64,000 bases of DNA from Candolleomyces eurysporus (Eukaryota > Basidiomycota > Agaricomycetes > Agaricales > Psathyrellaceae): the NCBI GenBank assembly GCA_027579435.1, contig JANBPK010000751.1, positions 62,001 through 126,000 of the forward strand, in the 5' to 3' direction. Positions 17,337-63,300 of the stretch are shown in pieces. The stretch's first letter is position 1. Each line of letters opens with the position of its first letter. The position numbers were made by a program, and so were the translations under genes. A model generated the notes under the pieces. That model had not been told where the DNA came from, did not search any database, and saw only the letters and a program-made list of their open reading frames with translations.

Positions 17337-20124
17337 CTAGACAGAGAGAATGAGTGTGACAGACATGCAGTTTCTATCTTCAATGGCTTGTCGACAATTG
17401 GTGATCATGACTTGAAAATTGCAACTAGCATCCGAACCCATAATAACCCCTTCCACGCGAAGGCGGACACTAATCCATTCATAAACCTGAGAAGCCCCTA
17501 GTATTAGCCTTTGGCGTACGAGCGAGAGAACCCAGCCCACACGCACTTTATATACCGTCCTGGCTGTCCATTGAGCTGCTGGCTGTGAAATTCAAGCAAG
17601 GGTTAGAAATCCATCGTCAATTCGGGAGACATCAGAATGTACGTACTACGGAAAGGTGTATTTCGCTGGAGCTCGAGTCCAAGACTGGCGCTCTTCCGTA
17701 CCATGAAGACTGGGTAGTGCGATCTGAATTAATGATATACTCAGGGAAAAAACCTGATATTGAACAAACCTTGCTCTCAAGAGCAGCAGTTGCGCGAAGT
17801 AAATAGGAATGCAAAACTGGGATTTCGTCTTGCGGAATATCGAAAACGAGTTCGTCGACCATTGGCCCGATTATCCCTAGATTGGAGAAGGGTTCATTCA
17901 GCCACGTATCTGGAAGCGAATCCCATTCCAACGCCAGGGTTAGATGTCGCATTAAAAGCATAAAATCCCGTTTCTGAGCACGAAGTGCAAGGTTAGTGAA
18001 AACACCGCTATAGGATGATAACACAAAGAACGAGAACAATTGATGATTTGACCAGCCCATGCTGGATTGCTCGAGCTCTGTGGCTGGGTTTGAACAAGTC
18101 TTGTAGAACGAGGTCCAATGGGTGCTGAAGTTGACCCTGCTGTACAATGTGGCCTCCGACTCCGCCGACTCCGCCGCCACGCCACGTTTGTAGTCAAGTA
18201 CAAGAGTGAAGCACCGACGGGACAAGTGAAGGTGATGCGAGGGCGGTACGAAGAAACGCCTGGATCGACTTTCAGTGGTGAGAAAGTCGTGAAGGGAAGT
18301 GTGGCGCCATGTAACAGGTAGCCGATCGTGCTCGGACTGTTCTGGCATGGAAATAATGAGTTTTAGATTATCCAGGACGCGAACGATGTCGTGAGTTTTG
18401 GTGCCAATAATCTCTGCTATACTGGTAAGGGGTAGTGGTTCAAACAGTAGCGCGATGGTCGAAATGATGTCAGAGAAATTGGGGAGGTGTTCAGACCGAT
18501 CAAGTATTTGAGCGTAGATTGGATCGAACGCGCATCCAGGATCTAGGTTTGGGGTAAGAAGGAGGTAATGACGATAGAATGGCTCCACGAGCCTGGAAGG
18601 CAGAAGAGCACACTGCGCTACATGGTCTCCGAAATGGCCCACGCTATACGAAGAAGCGACTGTACTTTCTCCAGTGGACAATAGGCTGATCCACAAGATG
18701 AGACAGCGGAAGGACAAATGCAGGTGGTATGAACGTGGGGCGACGAAAAGCCCAGATCGATGTTCGTCTGTGAGGAAGTCTCGAAGGGACGTATGACAAA
18801 GGGTGACAGGCAGCTCATCGGTCCCGGGAATGTGGATGATTGCTTGAAGATTGACCAGGACGCGGATGACTTCAAAGGGCTCAATGCCAAGAAGTTCTGC
18901 GATCCCGGTGATGGGGAGTGGCTTGAACAGCATCGCAATGGCTGAGATGATGTCCGAAAAATGGGGGAGATCCTTGGATCGGGATAATGTTTGGGCGTAG
19001 AGGGTATCCAGGCCGGGGTTCATGTTCAGAGTGTGTGGGAGGCGATCCATTGGAGTCGAAAGCTCTTCAACGGGGTCCACAATGTACCTGAACAGAGCAG
19101 ATGCGAATATGAATGACCCGTCGATGTGATCCACCAACGTGTCAAGGTCAGCCTTAACCGGCCATTCCCCTGAACTTTCAATGAATGCCTTGATTATGGG
19201 ATTGCGTAATCTCTCGGTGTCGAAGCAGGTGCGTAGGAAGGTAAGGATGTCGTCGCGAGAGCTATAGTTGATGAGGTTTTCCAAGCGGACTTGCTTGTTC
19301 ATAAGGCGACTCTGGATGTGCTGCTCTACACGGCTGGTGATCAGGAACCGCAGGGGGACGAGGGGGTTCTTCTTGAAAAAGTCGAGCATTTCATCGATAA
19401 AAGTTGCGACGTCCTGCCGATCTTCGCACTCGTCAAGTCCATCAATTACAACGAGGAAGGGTCCCTTGAGCAGGGTCGCCGCGAGGAGATGACCACGCTT
19501 GGCTGCGGCTTTGAAAGGCTCAAAGACTAGGCGACGAAGTTGGGCGGCCAACCCCGATTGAAGCAGACCCGGCTCTACCTTGACAGCATTTTCGATGAAT
19601 GGCGCTGCCCCAGGGATGGCAGCTGCCAGCTGGCAGGCCAATGTCGTTGCAAACTTGGTCATCCTACTCCGATTACCGGCATTGCGAAAGAAGAAAAAAC
19701 TTCCGACCAAGCGCCCTCTCTTCTCGAACTTAACCGCAACTGAAAGGGCGAGAGCCGATTTCCCGGACCCCACGTACCCATAGAGCCAAAGGACGTGCGG
19801 ATTGAGCAGGAGGCTGCTATCTACCCATGACACTATTCTGCGGATTACATTAATCCGTGTGCCGGGGAAGCAGGCTGAGTTTGGTGGGGNAGGTCTCTCG
19901 ATTTCGGGTGTGAGACGCATCGAGAATCGGTTGCAGCAGTTGGACGAGATCTGGAAAGCATAAGTATTATTGAGGTGAACTGGCGCGCTCATCTTGAGAA
20001 ACAGCTCACCTATCTTGGGGATGGAGACGTACTGGCCCCCAGCAACGAAGTGCAAAGTGGAATCGTGTATTTCAAGGTTTTGCGCCCTTGAGAAAGCCTC
20101 AATATGGCCGTTGGTATAAGCCAT
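17337..20124 (-). CDS. NACHT NLR-like STAND protein with 2 repeated post-NACHT modules
   Basis: Exon 1 is 20124-20010 and exon 2 starts at 19950. Two small 3' introns lead to a last exon ending at 17337. The N-terminal segment (FSRAQNLEIHDSTLHF) is the short leader common on basidiomycete NACHT proteins. The NACHT domain carries a P-loop GYVGSGKSA (about residue 95-103), Walker B FLVVIDGLDECED and sensor LRFLITSRVE. Next come two tandem modules of about 150-160 residues, each beginning with a LYAQTL/IYAQIL helix and containing DIIS-IALLF-PLP---IAE-(L/I)(L/I)G and HTSL-DFLT. The first spans about 19030-18560 and the second about 18550-18090. A conserved tail follows. An N at 19890 must be dropped for the spliced frame to stay open. 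The family senses non-self or triggers programmed cell death in fungi; that role is inferred here. Confidence 0.8.
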
Positions 20125-51530: not shown

Positions 51531-52583
51531 ATGAGCAGCCCGTTCATTTACGTGCCAGAAGCCAACTATCAACAATCGGCCTACTATAACCAACCTTACT
51601 CGCCCTATGGCTCACCCTTCGTGCCCGATTTGTCCCTCGGTGGATCCCCCTATTCGACTGGAGGAGGTTCCCTTCCGGGGTCGCCTCACCTAGGTGGCGG
51701 GACACCTCTCCCAGCTGGTCCCGTCCCCTTCCCCGGCATGCTTGGTGTCCCTCCCGACCCAACATGGGATGCTCCGGTCTATGGGCGCCCACGACAGAAT
51801 TCATGGCACGGGACCAACCCCTACAATCCATCCGGCCTGCTTTTCGCACCCCCACGAGCCCATGTTCGTTCCAACTCGTTCGGTCAAAACACCGCACCAC
51901 CGCCTGTCGTCCCAGGGGGCCTTCCCCCATTCTACCCTCCCCCTCCCGCCAGCGCGCCCATCTATTCGAATTGGAATCCCAATTCCCATTCGCCTTGGTA
52001 CAGGCGCTTCATTGCCCTCCCCACCCATCGAGAATCGCAGGTCTACATCCATCCGTGGCTGAACGGAGAAGCTCCCCGCCCAGATTTTATCTTCAACTTG
52101 GCTTCCCCGACCTTTGCGCCCATGAGGATCGTGGGCCCGCGTGGGGAGACGGCGCTTCTCGGGCCTGAAGAACTCTCGCAGCCTGCGACGTACCCCTACA
52201 TCCACAAGCTCACCGTCACTCATGACAAGATTCCGCAGTGGCCCGTTGAGCTGGTGTATCATCCTCCCACACCCAACATGGCATTGACGACTTTTGATAA
52301 TATGCCCCCGATTTCGGTCGGGGATGTGTTGGTGGCGATCCATAAGGAGATGCAGAAGGGGATCACGCACCATGATTGGGCGGGGCTCTCGACGAGGGAG
52401 GAGACGGAGGTGGCGAGGGCCTTCCAGAGGAGGTGCAAGGCCGTGGGTCCCCAGGGACAGATGCAGCTTAGGAGCATGGGTGTGAAGAGGGTGGATTATT
52501 TGTTGGATAAGAAGATGTTCAGAGGCCTGGTTAGGACCGCGGAGGGACTGGAGCAGCTGAAGCTGATCACTTCGGCCCCGTGA
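51531..52583 (+). CDS. DUF6699-type protein with Pro-rich N-terminus
   Basis: Single exon of 350 residues starting MSSPFIYVPEANYQQ. Residues 1-155 are Pro/Gly/Ser/Tyr-rich and presumably disordered. From about residue 170 the globular part has VYIHPWLNG, FIFNLASP, ATYPYIHKLTVTHDKIPQWPVELV, then ISVGDVLVAIHKEMQKGITHHDW, ARAFQRRCKA, and GVKRVDYLLDKKMFRGL. That order and the GDVL-AIH and RVDYL motifs are those of the DUF6699 family, abundant in Agaricomycetes and of unknown function. A start in good context follows a TATA-like site at about -60. Confidence 0.85.
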   Translation: MSSPFIYVPEANYQQSAYYNQPYSPYGSPFVPDLSLGGSPYSTGGGSLPGSPHLGGGTPLPAGPVPFPGMLGVPPDPTWDAPVYGRPRQNSWHGTNPYNPSGLLFAPPRAHVRSNSFGQNTAPPPVVPGGLPPFYPPPPASAPIYSNWNPNSHSPWYRRFIALPTHRESQVYIHPWLNGEAPRPDFIFNLASPTFAPMRIVGPRGETALLGPEELSQPATYPYIHKLTVTHDKIPQWPVELVYHPPTPNMALTTFDNMPPISVGDVLVAIHKEMQKGITHHDWAGLSTREETEVARAFQRRCKAVGPQGQMQLRSMGVKRVDYLLDKKMFRGLVRTAEGLEQLKLITSAP

Positions 52584-52917
52584 GCGCTTGTTAGTGCTCA
52601 GTCCTGACCCTATACCCCGGTCCCGTACCTAGGACGCGGTCTTTATCTTGGAGATTCTTGATATGTATATGTATCTCTGTATGGACGATATGATGGTAGG
52701 ATACCCTTTTCGTCGTTACCATCGCGAGTGTATTTAGCCAGGATTAGATATCACATGGAATATGAACAATCTAAATGTAGGATTCGCAAAGCTCGTTTGG
52801 TGGGATCCCTAGAACAGATCCGTGCTCTCGTTAGTGAGACGAAGAACTAAGAAAGGCGGGGCGTTATCCAACGTGCACTGAACTCTCTTTGATTCCCTCA
52901 TCTTCCGCCGATGCCTT
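52584..52917. other. Convergent 3' intergenic region
   Basis: Lies between the ends of two convergent genes; AT-rich near 52660-52780, nothing else seen. Confidence 0.4.
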
Positions 52918-53858
52918 TCACTTCAACGAGAGTCGCATGGAAAATGCATCTTCGCCATCCGCGTCTTTAACCAGCAATCAGCAAACGATACAAGAAATGC
53001 CAAGCCAGCGACTTACAGTACTTCTTTTCCACTTTAGCAACCTTGAACCCCAAAGAGTCCCGATAGAGTCCGATCGCGGCTTGGTTGGACTTTCGGACAT
53101 GCAGAGTCACATAGGAAGCGTGATACACCGAGTGCATGGCTTCTTCTACAAGAGAGAGAACAAACCATCTCCTTCAGTTCGTGTTACCATGGATAGCGCC
53201 GGGGAGAGGGCACGTACGAGATAGCAACATAAGTTTCTTCGCGAGACCCAACCTTCGGTACGACCGGATGACTGAGATGGAGTTGACATGTCCATGGGGA
53301 ACTTCATTGTCGTCTTCAGGTTCCTCTCTAGAGGAACAGAGTTCATTGTCATTGGCAGGATCACAGAAAACGGCTGATACGAGCGCGGAATCATGCGTAC
53401 ACTTTCGCAAGTACGTAGCCCACGATGCGCCCTTTATGGTCTTCAGCGACGAATGAGATTTGCGGCCAAGTCATGGTGTGATATATCCCTGTCAATGGAA
53501 GAGATCAGGTATGTTATCAAAGGCCAAATTATCGAAACTTACAGAACCTCATCGCGTAGTTCTCAGGGAGATTCTGCAGGTTTGCAGCCTGCATCCCAGC
53601 AAGGTCTTCAACCTGTCGGATGAGATAAAGGCAAGCCAGACCGCGTAAGTTCCAAGTTATGACACGCTGATAGCCCATCGACTAGACTTTGTGGTAACAG
53701 AGGTCTATCGAGGGGCCTCAAGCCTCGCGATGGCTGCAGCACTGTTGCCTGTGAAGGCCAGAATGAGTTCTGAACGTACTCGATGGAACTCATCCACATT
53801 TCTGCTGCAACTGCTTGATTAAACGGAATGAACGCACTCGTGCGAGTCTAATGTTCAT
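52918..53858 (-). CDS. NAA10: N-terminal acetyltransferase NatA catalytic subunit
   Basis: First exon MNIRLAR, a long first intron, then [102 protein letters not shown] and a C-terminal [18 protein letters not shown]. These match ARD1/NAA10 almost motif for motif, including the acetyl-CoA loop R-RLGLA (Q/R-x2-G-x-G/A). NatA acetylates Ser/Ala/Thr/Gly N-termini co-translationally on the ribosome together with NAA15. The start is fixed by the conserved MNIR. The protein stops at the family's core; no long charged tail is present. Confidence 0.92.
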
Positions 53859-54644
53859 AGTTCTTCGTACGCGGAACGAGATTGCTCTGGAGAAATATGA
53901 TTGAGCGCCTCTGAGTCAGGGATTCCGGTTCAACAACCCGCTCAGCGTTTGATTTGATTACATCAGCGACAAACGGTCCCTTCCGGTCCGACATGCATCT
54001 GTTGTGGCACTGACCTCGTCGGTGACAAACCGCAAGTCATTTCTGAATCGGTGCGTCTTCTTCTGCTAAAGCTTTGGATCTTATTTGTCTCGCTGAAATG
54101 CTAATAATTCTGAGAATGAAAGCCACCCGGCTTACGATCAATCCCCTAGTTTTGCAAGATTTTGACGACTTCAGTGATTCCTCCTAGAAACAGCATCAGC
54201 TTGACACGAGAGCCACGTAATTTGAGAGTCCTTGGAAATGCGTACATGATGATAGAATTCTCATAGCTATATCCCAGCTTCGAGTGGATGAGGTCAAAAA
54301 CCTCGATTCCCTTAGTTCTGCAAAAATCTGTGCGATAACCAGTCTGGGACGCTTGGGCAAGTACATCTTTTGCAAGTTCTCGTAATCACTACTGGACTAC
54401 ATCTATCTTGATATTATCGGAATTTTCCAAGAATTTCTAGCAAAATATTCGGAAATTTGTAGGACCTGGGGAATTTGCATTACTAGGGGCCTGATAGTAT
54501 GTCCAACTGTATGGCATTTGTTCTCTCCTCGTGAGAGCCTTGTGCCGTCCGGCAAGGAGGTTCTCGAATCTGAGAACCCTGTGCTGCAATTCTTTCCTCC
54601 CGCCCACACCTCTGGGCCCAACCTAATTGCTCTCCACCTCGCCA
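53859..54644. other. Intergenic, no gene recognised
   Basis: Divergent spacer between NAA10 and NLR-like gene 2. Only short frames, no repeats found. Confidence 0.4.
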
Positions 54645-57600
54645 ATGGACGACACACACGGGGGAGAACACTCCGAAAATGTGTCTGGTGTCAGAAATGC
54701 TGAAGCACAAGCACATTATACGGCACTCATGATCAGGGACGTCGCTATACACAATGCACATTACCACGGACCCGTAAACATTGGGCACGCTGAGAACACC
54801 AATTTTGGCACCAACTCTGGTGAGCTTGTATTTGTTCCCTGAAGAATCTTCGGAGAATGATTTCCGACTTCCACCGGCTTTTTTTGTCTAGGTACTATCT
54901 CCCAAGCCACGGCTTCTCCACCAGCCGCTGGAAATTGGCAGTTCGTCTCTAACAAGGGTGAGCTACCCAACACCAGCATGTATGGACTGGCTCTTGCTAA
55001 TGCAGCTCATCAGAGCTCAACCAGCTACTTGATCCGATTCCTGATGCATCGTACACTCGAAATCGAAAGACGTCACCCCCTGACTCTGATTGCTTCCCTG
55101 GAACGAGGGAGGAGGTTATTCAGGATATCACTGACTGGGCTGATAGGCCTACTCTCTTCAGCTCTGACACTCCCCATGTCTATTGGACACATGGCTATGT
55201 GAGCTGTGGCAAGTCAGCCATTTCGCAGACGCTCTCGCGAAAATATGCGGAAAAGGGACGGCTACCGGCGAGCTTCTTCTTCTGTCGCAATTCGGGCGAT
55301 CGAAGCAAGATGACGAAATTTGCGGTTACCTTGGCCAGCCAAATGGTCGCTGCCATCCCTTCAACTCGACTATTCGTCAAAGCGGCCGTGAAGGCAGAGC
55401 CTGCGTTGGCGACGCGAGGGGTTTCTCTTGCCACCCAGCTCGAACGCTTGGTATACAAGCCTTTCCAAGCCGTTCTCAAACGCGGCCTCATACTCAAGAC
55501 CCTCCTCAAGGGTCCATTCCTAATCGTCATTGATGGACTTGACGAATGTGAGGACAAGGAAGAGGTGAAGGAATTTATCAACCATTTACTTGATTTCTTC
55601 AAGCGACATCCTTCCATTCCCCTGCGATTCTTCATCACCAGTCGAGTCGAACTGCATATTCAAGAATGTTTGAATACCGATGGAGTTCTATTGGATGATC
55701 TTGTCACCCGTGGTTCAGAAGGCGATATCCTTACCTTCCTGGGAACCTCGTTCCTAGTTCAAGCGAAAAAGGATCTTGTCATCGCGGCATATATTCGAGG
55801 TCATGGACAGTGGCCGACTCGAAAAGACATGAAGATGCTTGTGCACCACATCGGAGGATCCTTCATTTTTGCATCCATCGTGTTCAAATACATCATCGGA
55901 CCCTTGGACGATAGTTTAACCCCAATGACTCGCCTCCCTCTTGCGTTCAATATGAACCCAGGTCTCGATGGTCTTTACGCCCACACCCTCACCAGATCGC
56001 GGCATTTACTACACTTCACCGATGTGATTACAACCATCGCCTTGATTTTCGAACCGCTCCCAATCGCGGGAATTGCAGAACTCCTTGGCATCGAGACATT
56101 CGAGGTTCTTCACGTTCTTGTGAATTTGCAGGCCATCATTCATATCCCGCCGACCAACGATTTACCCATCACACTGTGCCACACTTCCCTTCGCGACTTT
56201 CTCACAACTGAACGCCGATCTCAATGTTTCTTCGTTCCTCCCTCTCATCATCTCCATTTGTTATACCGCTGCTCTGTGCTCCTTGATAACAGGCAATCCG
56301 GGACCGCGGCTACCTTGTATAGCATTAGCCACTTGCAAGACCATCTTGAGCGGTGCACTTGCCTACCCTCATGGCAGCAAGGACAGGTCTCTCGCGCTCC
56401 TCGAACGCTGGACGATTTCTATCGTCAAACCCTCGCAAATTCCCAAAATCTTCCCCCATTTCTCTGACATTATCTCAACCATTACTTTACTCTTTGATCC
56501 ACTCCCAATCGCCGGGATCGCAGAGCTTCTCGGCATCATGCCCGTTGAAGTTGTTCAGGTCCTAGATAATCTGCGAGCAATCCTGCATATCCCGGAAACC
56601 CGCAGCTCACCCGTCACCCCGCGCCACCCATCGCTACACGACTTCCTCACGACTCCAAGTCGTGCTGGACGCTTCTTTGCCCCTCCATCCTATCATCTTC
56701 ATCTTATATATCGCTGCTTCACCCTCAGAGATAGGCGGTGCTCTGGGACGGCCGCTGCTTTGTACAGCGATAGGTTTTTCGAACAGCATATTGAGCAGCT
56801 TACTTGTTTACCATCAATTGCGCAGGCAAAGCTTCCCCGTTTCCCTCACACCCTCGATACTCTCTACGCTCGAATCCTGGCCANGTCCCAAGATCTTCCC
56901 CATTTCCATGACATTATCTCGACCATCGTATTCCTTTTTGAACCCCTCCCAGCTAATGGAATAGCAGAGCTCCTTGGAATCACGACTGTTGAAGTCATCC
57001 AGGTCCTAGACAATCTGCAAGCGATCATCCACCTCCCCGAGACTAATGATGTCGACTTACCGGTCACATTGTGTCACACATCCCTCCGCGATTTCCTCAC
57101 CACTCAAAGTCGATCAGGAAGTTTCTTCGCCCCTCCTTCTTTCCATCTTCACCTATCATATCGCTGCGGGATTCTCTGGGATGAAAATCGTTCCGGCACA
57201 GCTGCTGCTTGGTACAGTATCGGTTGTACGGCACGGCATCTTGAGCAGTTCACTTCCCTACATCCATATGAGCAACGACCAATCTCACATTTCCCTCAAA
57301 CGCTCGATGTCTTCTACGCTCATATTCTCGCGAAATCCCAGCATCTCCCCCATTTCCGTGACATCATCTCAACGATCGCGTTACTTGAACGGCCACTTCC
57401 CATCGCAGAGATTGCGGAACTTCTTGGAATAGATGCTTCCAAAGCTTCTCAAGTATTTATCAATCTGCGAGCAATCATCCCTCTCATAGATCGGGGAGGC
57501 GGCGACACACCGATGGCCGTATGTTCGAGACCCCTCCACAACTTCCTTACAAACGAAGTCCGATCAGGACCCTTCTTTGTATCACCCTCCTGTCATCTCA

Positions 57601-58496
57601 AGTTAGCGAACCGCTACTTCGCCCTCTACCTTGAACGCTCGCTAGGTAGCGAACTGGGTTCGCACCCTGATAGTTGTGTGTTCCCATACCAGTGGAAAGA
57701 CCACTTAAAACGGTGTCTTCAAGAAATATCGGAACAAAGTGTCCTTGCCGAACTTGGGCAATTCACCCACCCAGCTTCCTCCGAAGTCCTCCCATCTCAT
57801 CACATCTTCTCATCCGCACTACTTTTCTCCTGGATATTCGACAGGGACATCCCCAGACCACAACAAATTTTGGAGATCCTCGCCAAATGTTCCGAATCCC
57901 TGTCCCTGGCGTTAGAAAATGACCCTAAACCAGACAGATGGCTGCATGGTACATTCGGAAATCTGCCGTGTCAAGGGCACTCGCCGATCGATACATTGAC
58001 GACGCGCGTACACCACCACGAGGTCAAGACGTTGCAACGATATTCCCAACGCGCAGAAACAATGATTCAAGCTAAGGTCGATCTGTATCTCTTTGGCATT
58101 CAGGCATTCCATTCTGATGCGGCTCCGCGCAGTGTCCCAATAGTCGTCTCCCAAACCGGCTCGATCCTAATCTCAACACAGTCCCTAAGGAGTTTGAGGT
58201 ATGTTGCTGCATCCTCGCCTTCGATCAACGGCCTTTTTCAAATCACATCCACAGTTGCTCCACCGATGGACGCTCTTGGAGGTTTACAGAGTAAGCTCGT
58301 GACTTATTCTTCTATAGTAATCTCTCTTAAGATCTCAAACGTCCACCAGTTAGTCGAATGGGTATCTGCCCGTGTACAGATCGAAGTAGCCCCTGCAGGA
58401 CCAAACGCTGCCTGTGATCTGGAGCTTCGCATCGCTCATGGAGACTTCCGGGATACTGTAACAATAGGCTGCTCCGCCCAACCGACTGCCGCTTGA
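54645..58496 (+). CDS. NACHT NLR-like STAND protein with 4 repeated post-NACHT modules
   Basis: Exons 54645-54819, 54892-54957 and 55014-58496. The N-terminal leader (MDDTHGGEHSENVSG...ALMIRDVAIHNAHYHG) is linked by two introns to the NACHT domain. The P-loop is GYVSCGKSA, Walker B is FLIVIDGLDECED, then RFFITSRVE. Four tandem modules of about 150 residues begin at about 55945, 56401, 56847 and 57298. Each has a L(Y/F)A or FYR helix, DII(S/T)TI, PLPIAGIAELLGI, HTSLRDFLT, FF-PPS-HLHL-YRC and, in the first three, SGTAA. A tail conserved with NLR-like gene 1 follows. The frame shifts inside module 2 at a C5 run (56453-56457) where sister modules have C4. This is either a miscall or a real lesion. 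An N at 56884 is an in-frame base. Non-self recognition or cell-death signalling is inferred from the family. Confidence 0.8.
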
Positions 58497-58929
58497 TTCG
58501 CTGTCATTCATGTACGAGTACATTCTGTTCAATAATATATTAACCTATTGTGCCCTTTGTAGTCGACCGACCGCGGTAGTCACGGATCGCTGAGCGTACA
58601 GACCAGCATGGGTGTGCACGGAACGGGGAGGACGAGCGTAAAGATACTGAAAATACATTATTGGACGACAAAGTTATACTTGACAAATACGACAATCTGG
58701 ATACTAGTCAGAAAAATCATACAAGCGGACGTGGACCAACCTGGGCCCTAATAAGAAGTGCGCGCACCGTGGAGATACCACCCCTGTGATACTCCTGCTC
58801 TATTCAACTTTCGAAGAATTCCATGAACGTAGCCTCTGGGTGGAGCTCTCAGAGCCTGGAATGGGTCNAAAAAACCAATAAATCCGAAGAAAAAAAAGAT
58901 AAACACGATCTCACTCCGTCGTCCTCTTC
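58497..58929. other. Convergent 3' intergenic region
   Basis: Nothing recognised; an N at 58868 sits by an A run. Confidence 0.4.
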
Positions 58930-61274
58930 TCAATCACGAGCTAGGACCCTCTCCAACTCCGTCAGCTCCTGAATAGCAATATGCAGTCGACGCTTGGCCT
59001 TGTGGCAAGCCTCAAGCACGCGAGAGACCGAGACCGTTTGCGTCTTCGTCACTGCCGTAGCCCCCGCATCGCACTCGAGCTCGCATACCGAGAACGTGGA
59101 GCAGGAAGGGGAAGGGGAAAACGACGGCTTGGAAGAGGAAAACTTAGAGTCACTCCCTTGTCGTCGGCGAGTTTTCGATTTCGACTTCGAGGAAGGTGAA
59201 GGTGATTTCCGTTGTTCGGGTTGGTCGTAACGACAAGGCCTCGGTCTCCGTCGGCCACTCTGGACCGTCCTCCTTGCTTTCCTTGACTCTATGAAGCTCC
59301 CTGAATCCTTTTCGTCTGCTGGGGTATTTTCGTACCGCGGCTTTTTGATTGTGCGGCGCGATACGTCCATCGACATCCTTGAGATTGCGGTAGGCGATGC
59401 CGGGGGAGCTTCTGGAGAGGGAGGCCTGGAACTGGAACAACTTGAGCTTGACGCCTGCCTTGAATGGCGACTCTGACCGAACGTCGACGGTTGGGGGTTT
59501 AGCCAAGAAGATACATATGCTGACTGGTCCTGGTCCTGGTCCTGGAAGTCAACCCGGGAGGACGACGGGAGACGGTTTGGTGGGACGGTAGGAAGAACCT
59601 GAGCTGGATGGTGGTCCTCGGTGCTACGGCCCGCATCATGCATGCCCTTTGCCCACTGCTTTCCAAAGTTCGATGACCTCTTGGACAGGATCGGCGGTGA
59701 GTCCTGCAAAATATCATCGATTTCAACTCCATTCCGAGCACTCGGATTTGGAAGTCTCTTTCCTGCATCGACGACATCGCTCGGCCGAATAGTCAGTTGG
59801 TCGAGTGACGATGTCGGCTTATAAGCAGGTGAAGAGAGCGAACGGGGAGGTGAGACAGGGAAATGGGGAGGTGAAGTTACGGCCTCTACCGAGCCGAAAC
59901 CTACTACATCGATCTTCGGAGTCGTCGGCTGGTAGGGAGGTGTTGAAGGAGCATAAAGGGGCGAGAAATGGATGAAGGGAGGCGAATCCACGACGATCTT
60001 AGAGTCGTCGCTGGTTCCTCCCACATTGTTTTCTACGCCCATCATTTCATCAGGATGATGATCGTGACGTGAGCCTGAGGGCTGGTCCATGAGAACATCG
60101 GAGTTGAAAGGCGGGGAAGTTGTCGGCGGATGGGAGGCACCATATCCGCACCATGTGTCCGAAGGGATGGACTGGGTGCGTGTCAACGGCAATGGGATGA
60201 CACCAGCGCTTGAAGGATGTGATGCAAGATGCATCGTGTCTGCGTTGCCGCAGTCAAATTCATCCGATCCACCCATGTTCAGATGAGCCAGGTTAGTCTG
60301 AGGTTGAGCGTGCTGGACGACTGGCCAAGGACCAGTCAGTAAGGGATGGCCAGGAGGTGAGGGGGAGAGAATCGGTCGACCTTGAGGGAGTGTGGCATCA
60401 CTCAAACCTTCTATTGCACCCGTGAGGCGCCCTTCTGACGCTGCGGAAGCGCCGGTAATACGTGTGGTAACCGTAGGCACAGTTAATAGCTCCGAACGCT
60501 CTGGCCTCGCTGAAAGTGATCCAGAGCAGATGCGCTCGATAGGATGATTCTCGGCGGATGGTCCAGAATCGTTGCTCTCTTTAAGCTGGATAGACAGGCT
60601 TTTGCATCCTTCAAGTTGAGAGGGGCGGTACTAACGACGCAAACTAGTGACTTACATTCCATTCTTTGCCCTAATCTCCGTAAGCCTGCCGTCATATAAG
60701 GCTTTTTTCAGCGTCTGAAAGTCTTTATAGAGTGGCTGGAGGACGGAAATCAACAAAGAGAGGGCTAACTCGAGGAAAGACGACTGACCGATTTGCGTTT
60801 GGCACGACATTGCACGAACACCAGCCTATCTCCCAGCTCCAGGTCGATTTTGCCCAGCACGCTCAAATTCGGGACCTTCAAAGCTTGAAAAAGCTTGTTC
60901 ATGTCGGCCTTAACCTTTGAATTATCCCAATTCAACATCTGCTCAGCTCTGGCTGCCTCGTATTCAATTTGGATTAGCAGGGTATGCATCTCGCCGGGCG
61001 TCTAACGGATCCCTTTGATCGAGAATGCTGTCAGTGCTTTGAAGGCAAGGGTGAACGGTTAACTCCCTACCTGGACTCCAGTTTCAGCGATTCTCCGACC
61101 CCGACCTACAAGTTGGGTTGAAAGTGAGCACTGGTGCGTGGTGGGTTTTGAATGGGGTGCTGTTTGCGAGCTGTGCATTCCAAGGTGAGGTACTCGTCCG
61201 GTCGGTTTCATTAAAGGGTTAACATGAACCATGTCACAGGTAGAGAGCAGGCGCGTGTTCTTCTCTGGGATCAT
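58930..61274 (-). CDS. Large disordered Ser/Pro-rich protein, unrecognised
   Basis: Model: a first exon from 61274 joins TPGEMHTLLIQIEYEAARAEQ at a clean intron (GTAGGG...GTTAG). It continues through a helical, conserved-looking N-domain (WDNSKVKADMNKLFQALKVP, GDRLVFVQCRAKRKS, PLYKDFQTLKKALYDGR) to a single long exon of over 500 codons. That exon is Pro/Ser-rich and disordered, with basic clusters (SGRRRPRPCRYDQ, SSKSKSKTRRRQGS). It ends in a predicted helix, EACHKAKRRLHIAIQELTELERVL. A small GTCCTG triplication encodes DFQDQDQDQ. The basic, disordered composition suggests a nuclear protein. The acceptor choice near 60618 is my inference. Confidence 0.6.
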
Positions 61275-63300
61275 GGCTACGGAAACTTTCCGGAGCTCTT
61301 CACTCTCTTGTTATGGCTCAATTAATTGGTCATCAAGAGGAGCTTTTACTCGTTAGTCCATCACCTTCGCTCATGCTGATCGTGAGAGCTCAAACGATGC
61401 CTATTGCCTGACGGCATTGACGTGTTATTCATGGACGGAGACAGCCTGACTCGTAATTGACGCCTGCACTCGGCGGCCACCGTGAGAGCGCGGCTGTATG
61501 CAGCTTGGCGCTGGGAGGACCCATCTAGCGCCTGCTGACAGGCGCCCACATCATGTCGGGCCCCGGTTCGCTTGATCGGTTTCGTTTCTTTGCCCCATCT
61601 AATATGAGGAGGCCCTGCGGCTCGTGTTCCAGCATGTTTCAATGACAAGACGCCTTCCAGCCCCATATCGAGGTCTTACCATCCGTTTGGGCCCTCCATC
61701 CGCCGCGGCTGAGTTCCAAGTTGAAACGTGAACCTATTCGGTTCTCAGGGCCATTAATTCGCAACTGACTGAGTGGCTTACATGAGGAAGGCAACGTGAA
61801 AAGCGCCTCGTCGCTTGGTACCTGGCAGCCGCCTGAAAAAGATGGGAATTGGGCGTCCAACTTTGAATGCTGGAAATGTCCAGCCTTGTACCTGACTCTT
61901 GAAGGTTGATTTTGGCCTCTGTCCAATCTCAGAGGGCGGATGCGCTGTCTTTACTATCAGGGGAAGCATTAGATCTCGTTTCCAACTGGGAAAGAGGTGA
62001 AGAGGAGGTCATTAGGCGATCCCTTCGTATCAACTATCCGAGTTCCCGGCCGGAGGCTCGTGGCCTCATGCGTTTCCTAGCAAATCGCACTTTTCTCCAC
62101 CCCAATTTGACATGAGGCAAAAATCGATGGGTGACTCTCCTATAGGTGGTCCTTCAATGCTATAAACAGTTAGCATGGACAGCAGGGCATTACCTGAATC
62201 CTGCGGATAACGTTCTGCCCGTGAACGAGATGAATTGCCTGTTCGATATGCATTTTCTTCGGCCCTTCAGGCTATAAGCTACCGTAGCACGCGCCAGTGG
62301 CATCGCTAGAAGATAGAGTTACTCGATATGTGTTAGCTGGCATTGGAGAAAAAGGGGAAGCATCTCCACTTTCGAAATACTCGCTCCTCAATAATGCAGC
62401 CCCAGCCTTGCTCCACAAAGAACGACTTCTGTGACTCGACTATCTGATCAACGAAGCTCCTTCCGATGTATCCAACTACGGAATGATGAAGAATCCTCGT
62501 GGTAGGCCCAGTTGTTCTTGTTTTGCGATTTCACTCGCCTGCTCTTACAGCCTCTAGCGTACCTCAGAGATCCAGGGCACCGAACTTTGACCCACGCGTT
62601 TTCAAATTCTCTGAATCCTCATTGACTTGAACATTCTGAAATTTGCAAGGTGCTTGAATGGAACGTTGTCCGCAAATTGTTGGAGAGGCGGCAACCCCCG
62701 GGACTCGAACTCTTATTTTTATCTGATGATTGACTCGCCTACAGGTTAATGGGACTCACATCACGGGAATTGGACCCGTAAAGGACAACAGGAGAGGCCC
62801 AATGTACTCTTTCTTCCCCCTCATTCGGCGTCTTTCCGAGTCTGAGGATAATAGAATGCACCAACCGTCTCCCCAGATATAGTATGCACGCATGATAAAC
62901 CTGCTGAGAACGTGTATATCTTTCGAAGTTACCGGAATGGGCTTTCAACCCACCGATTCCCGAGCAATTAAATTGGGAGAGAGATAATGTCTAGCCTTTA
63001 CTTGATTTTTTTAGTTGCATCCTGTTATTCAGGACGCAACTGGCCAAGGGAGTGGAGGACAACACATGTGCTCAGCGTGTTCAGCCTTCAAAGATGCTTG
63101 TGTTTAGCGGCCAGAGCTGCACGTCGCAGCAATAAGAGGGCCGTTTATTTCAAATACATCCTAATTTCTGCTAATTGCACTTGAAGAAGGTGAACGAAAG
63201 ACGTGAAGGAGTAGAACTGGGAAAGAAATAACACGGATGAGGATCGAACCTGAGGTGAGAGGGCGAGAAATCACGGGACGTGCAGTCACGGGTTGCGATG
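61275..63300. other. Intergenic, no gene recognised
   Basis: About 2 kb with only short, competing frames on both strands and no splice structure or family signal. No repeats were detected by eye. Confidence 0.4.

Follow-up and report, generated by a model that had tools for sequence, protein, structure and literature searches.

We identified a gene of Candolleomyces eurysporus in which the segment directly downstream of the NACHT nucleotide-binding domain, predicted to be a winged-helix domain (WHD) with linker helices, is repeated four times in tandem, and arrays of two to seven such units recur in 64 of the 162 relatives that we retrieved. None of these 64 proteins contains a TPR domain in its precomputed Pfam list, whereas 54 of the 98 single-unit proteins do (Fisher 7e-16, a value that overstates independence since the retrieved proteins are related to each other); TPRs and multi-unit arrays are cleanly mutually exclusive among the retrieved proteins. 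Our best reading of the whole, which we hold with slightly more confidence than doubt, is that the first unit serves as the nucleotide switch, and that the other units together with the C-terminal domain form a sensor or scaffold arm that replaces the TPRs. The gene lies in a stretch of 64,000 nucleotides, hereafter the window, which corresponds to positions 62001-126000 of contig C1030 (197,430 bases) in a 65.9-Mb assembly.

Four tandem units downstream of a NACHT domain

The gene is encoded on the forward strand. Its script-fitted model starts at an ATG in predicted exon 1 (54645-54819), where a short N-terminus with a putative amyloid-like stretch is encoded and the reading continues into ELNQLLDPIPDASYTR, and proceeds through predicted exon 2 (54892-54957), with GT-AG introns at 54820-54891 and 54958-55013. 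The NACHT domain and HD1 extend from 55014 to 55963 and adopt a STAND fold in the predicted model of a paralogue. In the open reading frame at 55001-56464, the Pfam family NPHP3_N matched over its cut-off (E 6.7e-23) and the Pfam family NACHT under its cut-off (E 3.2e-4), and a P-loop (GYVSCGKS) as well as a Walker B motif (LIVIDGLDECED) were found. The gene has the attributes of a T-NACHT protein, namely a P-loop NACHT with a Walker B motif of the type D[GAS]hDE and, downstream of the P-loop, a first unit of the WHD/HETHS type with the motif CHTSLRDFL and not the NAIP-like WHD motif FhHxxhQE[YF]hxA, as the latter is given in the excerpted text of PMC12258605. The NLR definition in the same excerpt combines a nucleotide-binding domain with canonical TPR, ANK, WD40 or HEAT repeats. 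A Pfam scan up to E 1 gave no TPR, ANK, WD or HEAT match in 56451-58493, and we therefore refer to the window gene as NLR-like.

Unit 1, the proximal WHD with its linker helices, covers 55964-56407 (unit HMM score 209) and is followed by two internal WHDs, unit 2 at 56408-56852 (score 169 on 56436-56831) and unit 3 at 56853-57302 (score 202), and by a terminal WHD, unit 4 at 57303-57749 (score 151; terminal clade 99/94), in which Ser replaces the switch-type His in the alignment. At the protein level, the units start with the motif LD-x-x-Y and their starts are spaced by 444, 445 and 450 nt. The fourfold tandem repeat proposed in the earlier note is thereby borne out, with a period of 444-450 nt, although the unit starts given there were off by 5-19 nt. 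In a nucleotide repeat search, a 146-nt core occurs in register four times, at 56009, 56454, 56898 and 57348 (spacing 445, 444 and 450 nt), the copies sharing 68, 100, 75 and 64% of nucleotides with the reference; the four-unit array was not among the repeats called by Tandem Repeats Finder. Pairwise amino-acid identities among the four units range from 43 to 62%, with only the 132 residues downstream of a frame break used for unit 2, and the alignment scores of all six pairs lie 15-35 standard deviations over 200 shuffles, none of which reached the observed score. Contrary to the earlier note, the motifs differ between units: HTSLRDFLT is confined to units 1 and 3, with HPSLHDFLT in unit 2 and SRPLHNFLT in unit 4. 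Downstream of unit 4, the C-terminal region (57750-58493, about 248 codons) has no Pfam repeat, and the predicted structure of its counterpart in the homologue P0002, whose gene model starts within NACHT, is mainly helical.

The window copy has no single open frame across the array, a break that the earlier note had missed. The frame of unit 1 stops at 56467 and units 2-4 are read in a different frame, with the interruption at about 56436-56467, within the first part of unit 2; one ambiguous base (N) is located within unit 3. The two open reading frame pieces were analysed apart, and the interruption reflects either an error of sequencing or a true null allele. Contig C841 begins with a 9.5-kb stretch (C841:1-9500, locus L009) that is collinear with 51968-61563 of the window at about 94-96% nucleotide identity, including part of a flanking gene, and here all four units are located inside one open frame of 1159 codons. 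We read L009 as the other haplotype, and at this locus both haplotypes are apparently present in the assembly.

One explanation could be that the extra WHDs are functionless by-products of unequal crossing-over, or that the gene models wrongly fuse neighbours. The interrupted frame of the window copy would fit this explanation, as would the model of P0006, in which two NACHT modules are combined and one unit lies far from the others. However, open frames of up to 1159 codons are found at the DNA level in the allele and in other loci, the units are under constraint, the window units are directly consecutive with no NACHT remnant between them, and P0002, which is 75% identical over the query, shares the four-unit array. 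We consider a by-product highly improbable. A fusion of neighbouring genes was rejected on account of the open frame in the allele, and an assembly duplication on account of the divergence among the units and the agreement of the allele and P0002.

Structure models, together with weak sequence-profile matches, predict a STAND WHD plus linker helices for each unit. In the models of homologues, unit 1 falls within the part that, downstream of NBD-HD1, aligns with structures of Apaf-1, MalT, Avs3 and archaeal STAND proteins, and the predicted secondary structure agrees across all four units, in line with the earlier suggestion that the NACHT-adjacent winged-helix segment has itself been duplicated. 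For units 2-4, three helices and a two-strand wing are predicted in P0002 (unit 2 partly at low confidence), the unit 4 model of which matches winged-helix structures, and the sole PDB match of the four-unit model at E <= 0.001 is a STAND protein. HEAT-type importins and condensins in the same list, with TM-scores of 0.10-0.17, were judged to reflect a common helical arrangement. The His after the wing, which is present in window units 1, 2 and 3, presumably corresponds to the MHD-type His.

With single units as queries, no Pfam match over the cut-off was obtained, an NCBIfam search gave no match, and HTH_TANC1 (PF25521) matched one of 20 units under its cut-off (E 0.038). The unit profile gave two weak matches to transcription regulators among PDB sequences (E 0.21 and 0.31), and the piece from NACHT to unit 1 gave two weak unrelated matches. 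Since single units score under the Pfam cut-offs, the array is largely missed by standard annotation. No described repeat family of the tandem-WHD kind was met in Pfam. The weak Pfam matches are mostly to winged helix-turn-helix regulators (MarR, Crp, IclR), as would be expected if the winged helices formed an array that binds nucleic acid. However, the median net charges across the four position groups are -2 to -4 for the units, 0 to -1 for the recognition helix and -0.5 to -2 for the wing, and we rejected this extremely improbable role on the basis of the acidic surfaces.

Distribution of the arrays among retrieved relatives

The relatives were collected in three protein searches, which reach only relatives that share exact words; the first provided the best 120 of 174 matches, with 7992 candidates scored. 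Units were counted with HMMs of the unit classes at a lenient score of >15 bits, the members of the HMMs being among the counted proteins. One unit was counted in 98 proteins, two in 43, three in 14, four in 4, five in 2 and seven in 1. The segment is thus single in most of the retrieved relatives, as the earlier note had assumed, often in combination with TPRs, and the search for proteins with two or more copies that it had suggested yielded the 64 multi-unit proteins. At least two units are adjacent in 62 of these, with longest adjacent runs of two units in 45 proteins, three in 11, four in 3, five in 2 and seven in 1, and the remaining two have only distant units. The counts include fragment matches of 26-33 bits (the third and fourth units of P0020 and the third units of P0016 and P0039), second unit matches of 19 and 22 bits in P0143 and P0158, respectively, and the proteins P0006, P0047 and P0048, which contain two NACHT modules each.

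Adjacent units were found in C. eurysporus, C. aberdarensis and C. efflorescens and, more distantly, in Coprinellus, where the second unit match of P0136 scores 98 bits. Further proteins with adjacent units stem from metagenomes. In P0136, P0143 and P0158 from Coprinellus, and in P0138, two adjacent unit matches are followed by 177-192 match-free residues and a further match (some of them weak), which is a different arrangement outside Candolleomyces. The multi-unit NACHT model P0020 from C. efflorescens also contains a Costars domain (PF14705, best E 1.2e-18) and may be a fused gene model.

In the genome of C. eurysporus itself, we counted, at 40 fetched loci and in two window genes, 36 two-unit arrays, 3 three-unit arrays and 3 four-unit arrays, the four-unit ones including the window gene and L009. 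This count leaves out three fragments of adjacent genes at the edges of L016, L024 and L025. Because these loci were picked by similarity to a multi-unit query (65 of 545 candidates scored), the excess of two-unit arrays is biased and the share of single-unit genes is not inferable from it. The second NACHT gene of the family in the window is located on the reverse strand at 17635-20124, in a frame of 830 codons, and has one unit at 19011-18577 (unit HMM score 199) and a second at 18528-18070 (score 170). Contig C1030 contains, among the matches listed, nine places that match the family over about 110 kb (at about 80-191 kb), which represent a receptor gene cluster.

Duplication history and position-specific constraint

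A tree built from 86 units unites 25 last units in a single clade (99/94). Only two last-in-model units fall outside this clade, P0016_2of2, from a model with no more than a fragment of a third unit, and P0006_4of4, which belongs to the second NACHT module of its model. Most middle units cluster together with weak support (29 rows, 83/80), and the first units make up the remainder of the tree without forming a clade. Each window unit pairs with the unit at the same position in L009 and P0002 (100/97 to 100/99), which suggests that the window array is old and stable. Likewise, dS among the four units of the L009 allele is 1.3-3.0, near saturation, with dN/dS of 0.12-0.29; judged from these sequences the duplication in the window gene looks old, and a recent duplication was rejected on the basis of dS.

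Units of the same gene group together in P0001 (units 2-6, 100/99), P0003 (units 2-3, 100/100) and P0004 (units 1-4, 100/100, where the first-unit type is the one that is repeated), and the arrays of these three genes have thus been lengthened by within-gene duplication. Some pairs in P0001 and P0004 are 82-90% identical, as is one pair in P0003 at 85%, and P0004 has five units vs two in P0044 and P0045, with NACHT domains that are 94% identical. When unit number (one, two, or three and more) is mapped onto a 93-row NACHT tree, at least 11 changes are required, an approximate number obtained with only 14 single-unit proteins offered to the tree, with some rows from incomplete gene models, and with P0006, P0047 and P0048 labelled by their first module. 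The window row in this tree is the second NACHT gene, and the four-unit gene is represented by L009. We hypothesize that the WHD (WHD/HETHS/ARC2) after the nucleotide-binding domain was tandemly duplicated and could thereby have become the C-terminal repeat region of a NACHT-type STAND gene, in a family whose arrays of two to seven units have been lengthened repeatedly via within-gene duplication.

Signatures were counted over 105 single, 56 first, 24 middle and 56 last units, with gapped rows outside the denominators and some of the single rows stemming from proteins whose other units scored under the cut-off. The switch-type His occurs in 105/105 single, 55/56 first, 23/24 middle and 39/55 last units; for the wing Pro-Gly, the corresponding counts are 103/105, 55/56, 9/15 and 11/54. 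These counts indicate that the first unit is like an ordinary single WHD and that the other units are often released at the wing. Unit 1 would then work as any regular WHD does, closing over the nucleotide and changing position upon activation.

The earlier note proposed that copy number could tune the switch. Each unit would then be a regulatory or oligomerisation WHD, the extra copies acting as latches on their own or a neighbouring NACHT domain, with array length setting the activation threshold. The His retained by almost all middle units and the range of two to seven units among related genes are compatible with this proposal, as is Apaf-1, where the WHD touches the neighbouring protomer and His438 touches ADP (PMC4691890, in excerpt). 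However, the wing Pro-Gly is far less often kept in middle and last than in first units, the His is lost in 16/55 last units, the array length is identical in both alleles and P0002, and the arrays occupy the place of the TPRs. The signature of a single WHD is a regular feature of the first unit only, and a switch tuned by copy number is the less supported and, in our view, a clearly unlikely explanation. Because internal units keep the MHD-type His, it could also be imagined that they are spare latches docking on the nucleotide pocket, in cis or in a neighbouring protomer, and that array length sets how difficult the receptor is to trigger. This seems quite improbable to us; if true, the genus would have explored two to seven latches through repeated duplication.

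Selection was estimated for 14 own-genome paralogue pairs (28 of 34 open-frame loci), chosen greedily at a NACHT dS of 0.01-0.9, by counting differences between present-day genes with no ancestral sequence inferred, which has less power than a site-by-site test. Median dN/dS rises from 0.16 in NACHT to 0.27 in the first unit (12 pairs), 0.44 in the last unit (14) and 0.55 in the C-terminus (13). The value of the last unit exceeds that of NACHT in 13 of 14 pairs (Wilcoxon 0.0004), the first unit exceeds NACHT in 10 of 12 (0.026) and the last exceeds the first in 10 of 12 (0.027), all from rounded values. Some pairs may be alleles, recombination is visible in L034/L036 (NACHT dS 0.225 vs 0.091 in the first unit), and in L033/L044 the C-terminus, with an identity of just 43%, may be truncated or wrongly aligned. 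For the window gene, the comparison of its two alleles gives a dN/dS of 0.12 in NACHT, 0.97, 0.32, 0.15 and 0.33 in the units and 0.87 in the C-terminus, so that unit 1, with 18 differences, departs from the gradient. Relaxed constraint may be behind the rise in dN/dS. Values >1 in the last unit were obtained for two pairs, L037/L041 (2.3; Fisher 0.025, uncorrected across 14 pairs) and L019/L023 (3.2; Fisher 0.31). The NACHT domains of L037 and L041 are 98% identical and their last units only 75% (dN 0.146, dS 0.064).

The high dN/dS of the terminal unit and the C-terminus would also be expected if the units were a passive rigid spacer, similar to an extended HD2 stalk, and recognition were left to the terminal unit plus the C-terminal domain alone. 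Linker helices connect the WHDs in the predicted model, and the WHD-HD2-WD2 portion of Apaf-1 moves as a single rod, according to the excerpted text of PMC4691890. Yet a spacer of fixed length leaves the repeated growth of arrays in separate genes unexplained, and the arm is unevenly conserved: differences in the first unit amount to 1.56 per column in the linker-helix half vs 0.57 in the WHD half, and those in the last unit are spread out (2.41 vs 2.01; 11 pairs each). We consider a passive spacer rather unlikely.

We favor the hypothesis of a sensor or scaffold arm, which fits better than stacked switches given the loss of the wing Pro-Gly, the location of the array in the TPR position and the highest dN/dS at the terminal end. 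The internal and terminal WHDs with their linker helices would form an elongated arm, which together with the C-terminal domain might sense or scaffold an activating ligand, the job of TPR, ANK or WD40 repeats in other fungal NLRs. The activated oligomer could then template a cell-death partner through the short N-terminus. The window encodes at 54645-54957 a short N-terminus with a VNIGHAENTNFGTNSG stretch, similar to the short N-termini of several relatives. Short amyloid-like N-termini have been described in the Agaricomycetes (PMC9815663, in excerpt), and, judged by eye against the pattern of three hydrophobic residues plus G[DN], the short N-termini of the window gene and its relatives resemble these.

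Relation to known receptor systems

According to the excerpts used here, the sensors of fungal NLRs are ANK, TPR, WD40 or HEAT repeats (PMC12258605; PMC4986451), some of which change in repeat number and are under diversifying selection (PMC4986451; PMC12222747), and these excerpts of the NLR literature describe one WHD per protein or make no mention of the WHD. Among the papers listed in searches of an open-access library, none dealt with tandem WHD arrays, and a repeat family already described, the objection anticipated by the earlier note, was met neither there nor among the Pfam profiles. An NLR switch domain that is normally present once per protein has seemingly been turned into a repeat at the sensor position. 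The natural genes with two, three, four, five and seven copies would enable a direct test of array length against ligand specificity or activation threshold, and include genes with >90% identical NACHT domains (P0004 vs P0044 and P0045).

The T-NACHT (TLP1-like) fungal NLRs resemble the window gene in their NACHT with a DGLDE Walker B motif, a WHD/HETHS after the NACHT, clustered genes and a C-terminal repeat region (PMC12258605 and PMC4986451, in excerpt), but in the window gene the WHD itself is repeated and a canonical repeat is undetected, whereas many sister genes have a single WHD with TPRs. In the WD40 NLRs het-d and het-e of Podospora, which show high internal conservation, the repeat number also differs between related genes (PMC12222747, in excerpt), and some repeats in P0001 and P0004 reach a similar identity of 82-90%. 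The fold is different, however, the units comprise about 145-150 residues, and those in the window are old and divergent, their identities of 43-62% lying below the >85% that defines high internal conservation, a level attained by some pairs in P0001 and P0004.

HTH_TANC1 is likewise a winged-helix family, the cut-off of which was passed in P0001 as a whole-protein sum, whereas single units of the window type stay under it. TANC1 is a STAND-type protein. Apaf-1 (NBD-HD1-WHD-HD2-WD40; PDB 3sfz, 3shf and 1z6t) is similar in that HD1 and unit 1 in the model of a homologue overlay its residues 284-499, but it has one WHD, followed by HD2 and beta-propellers (PMC4691890, in excerpt), vs up to seven WHDs in the family of the window gene. 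A known switch domain thus seems to be used as a repeat inside a known receptor class.
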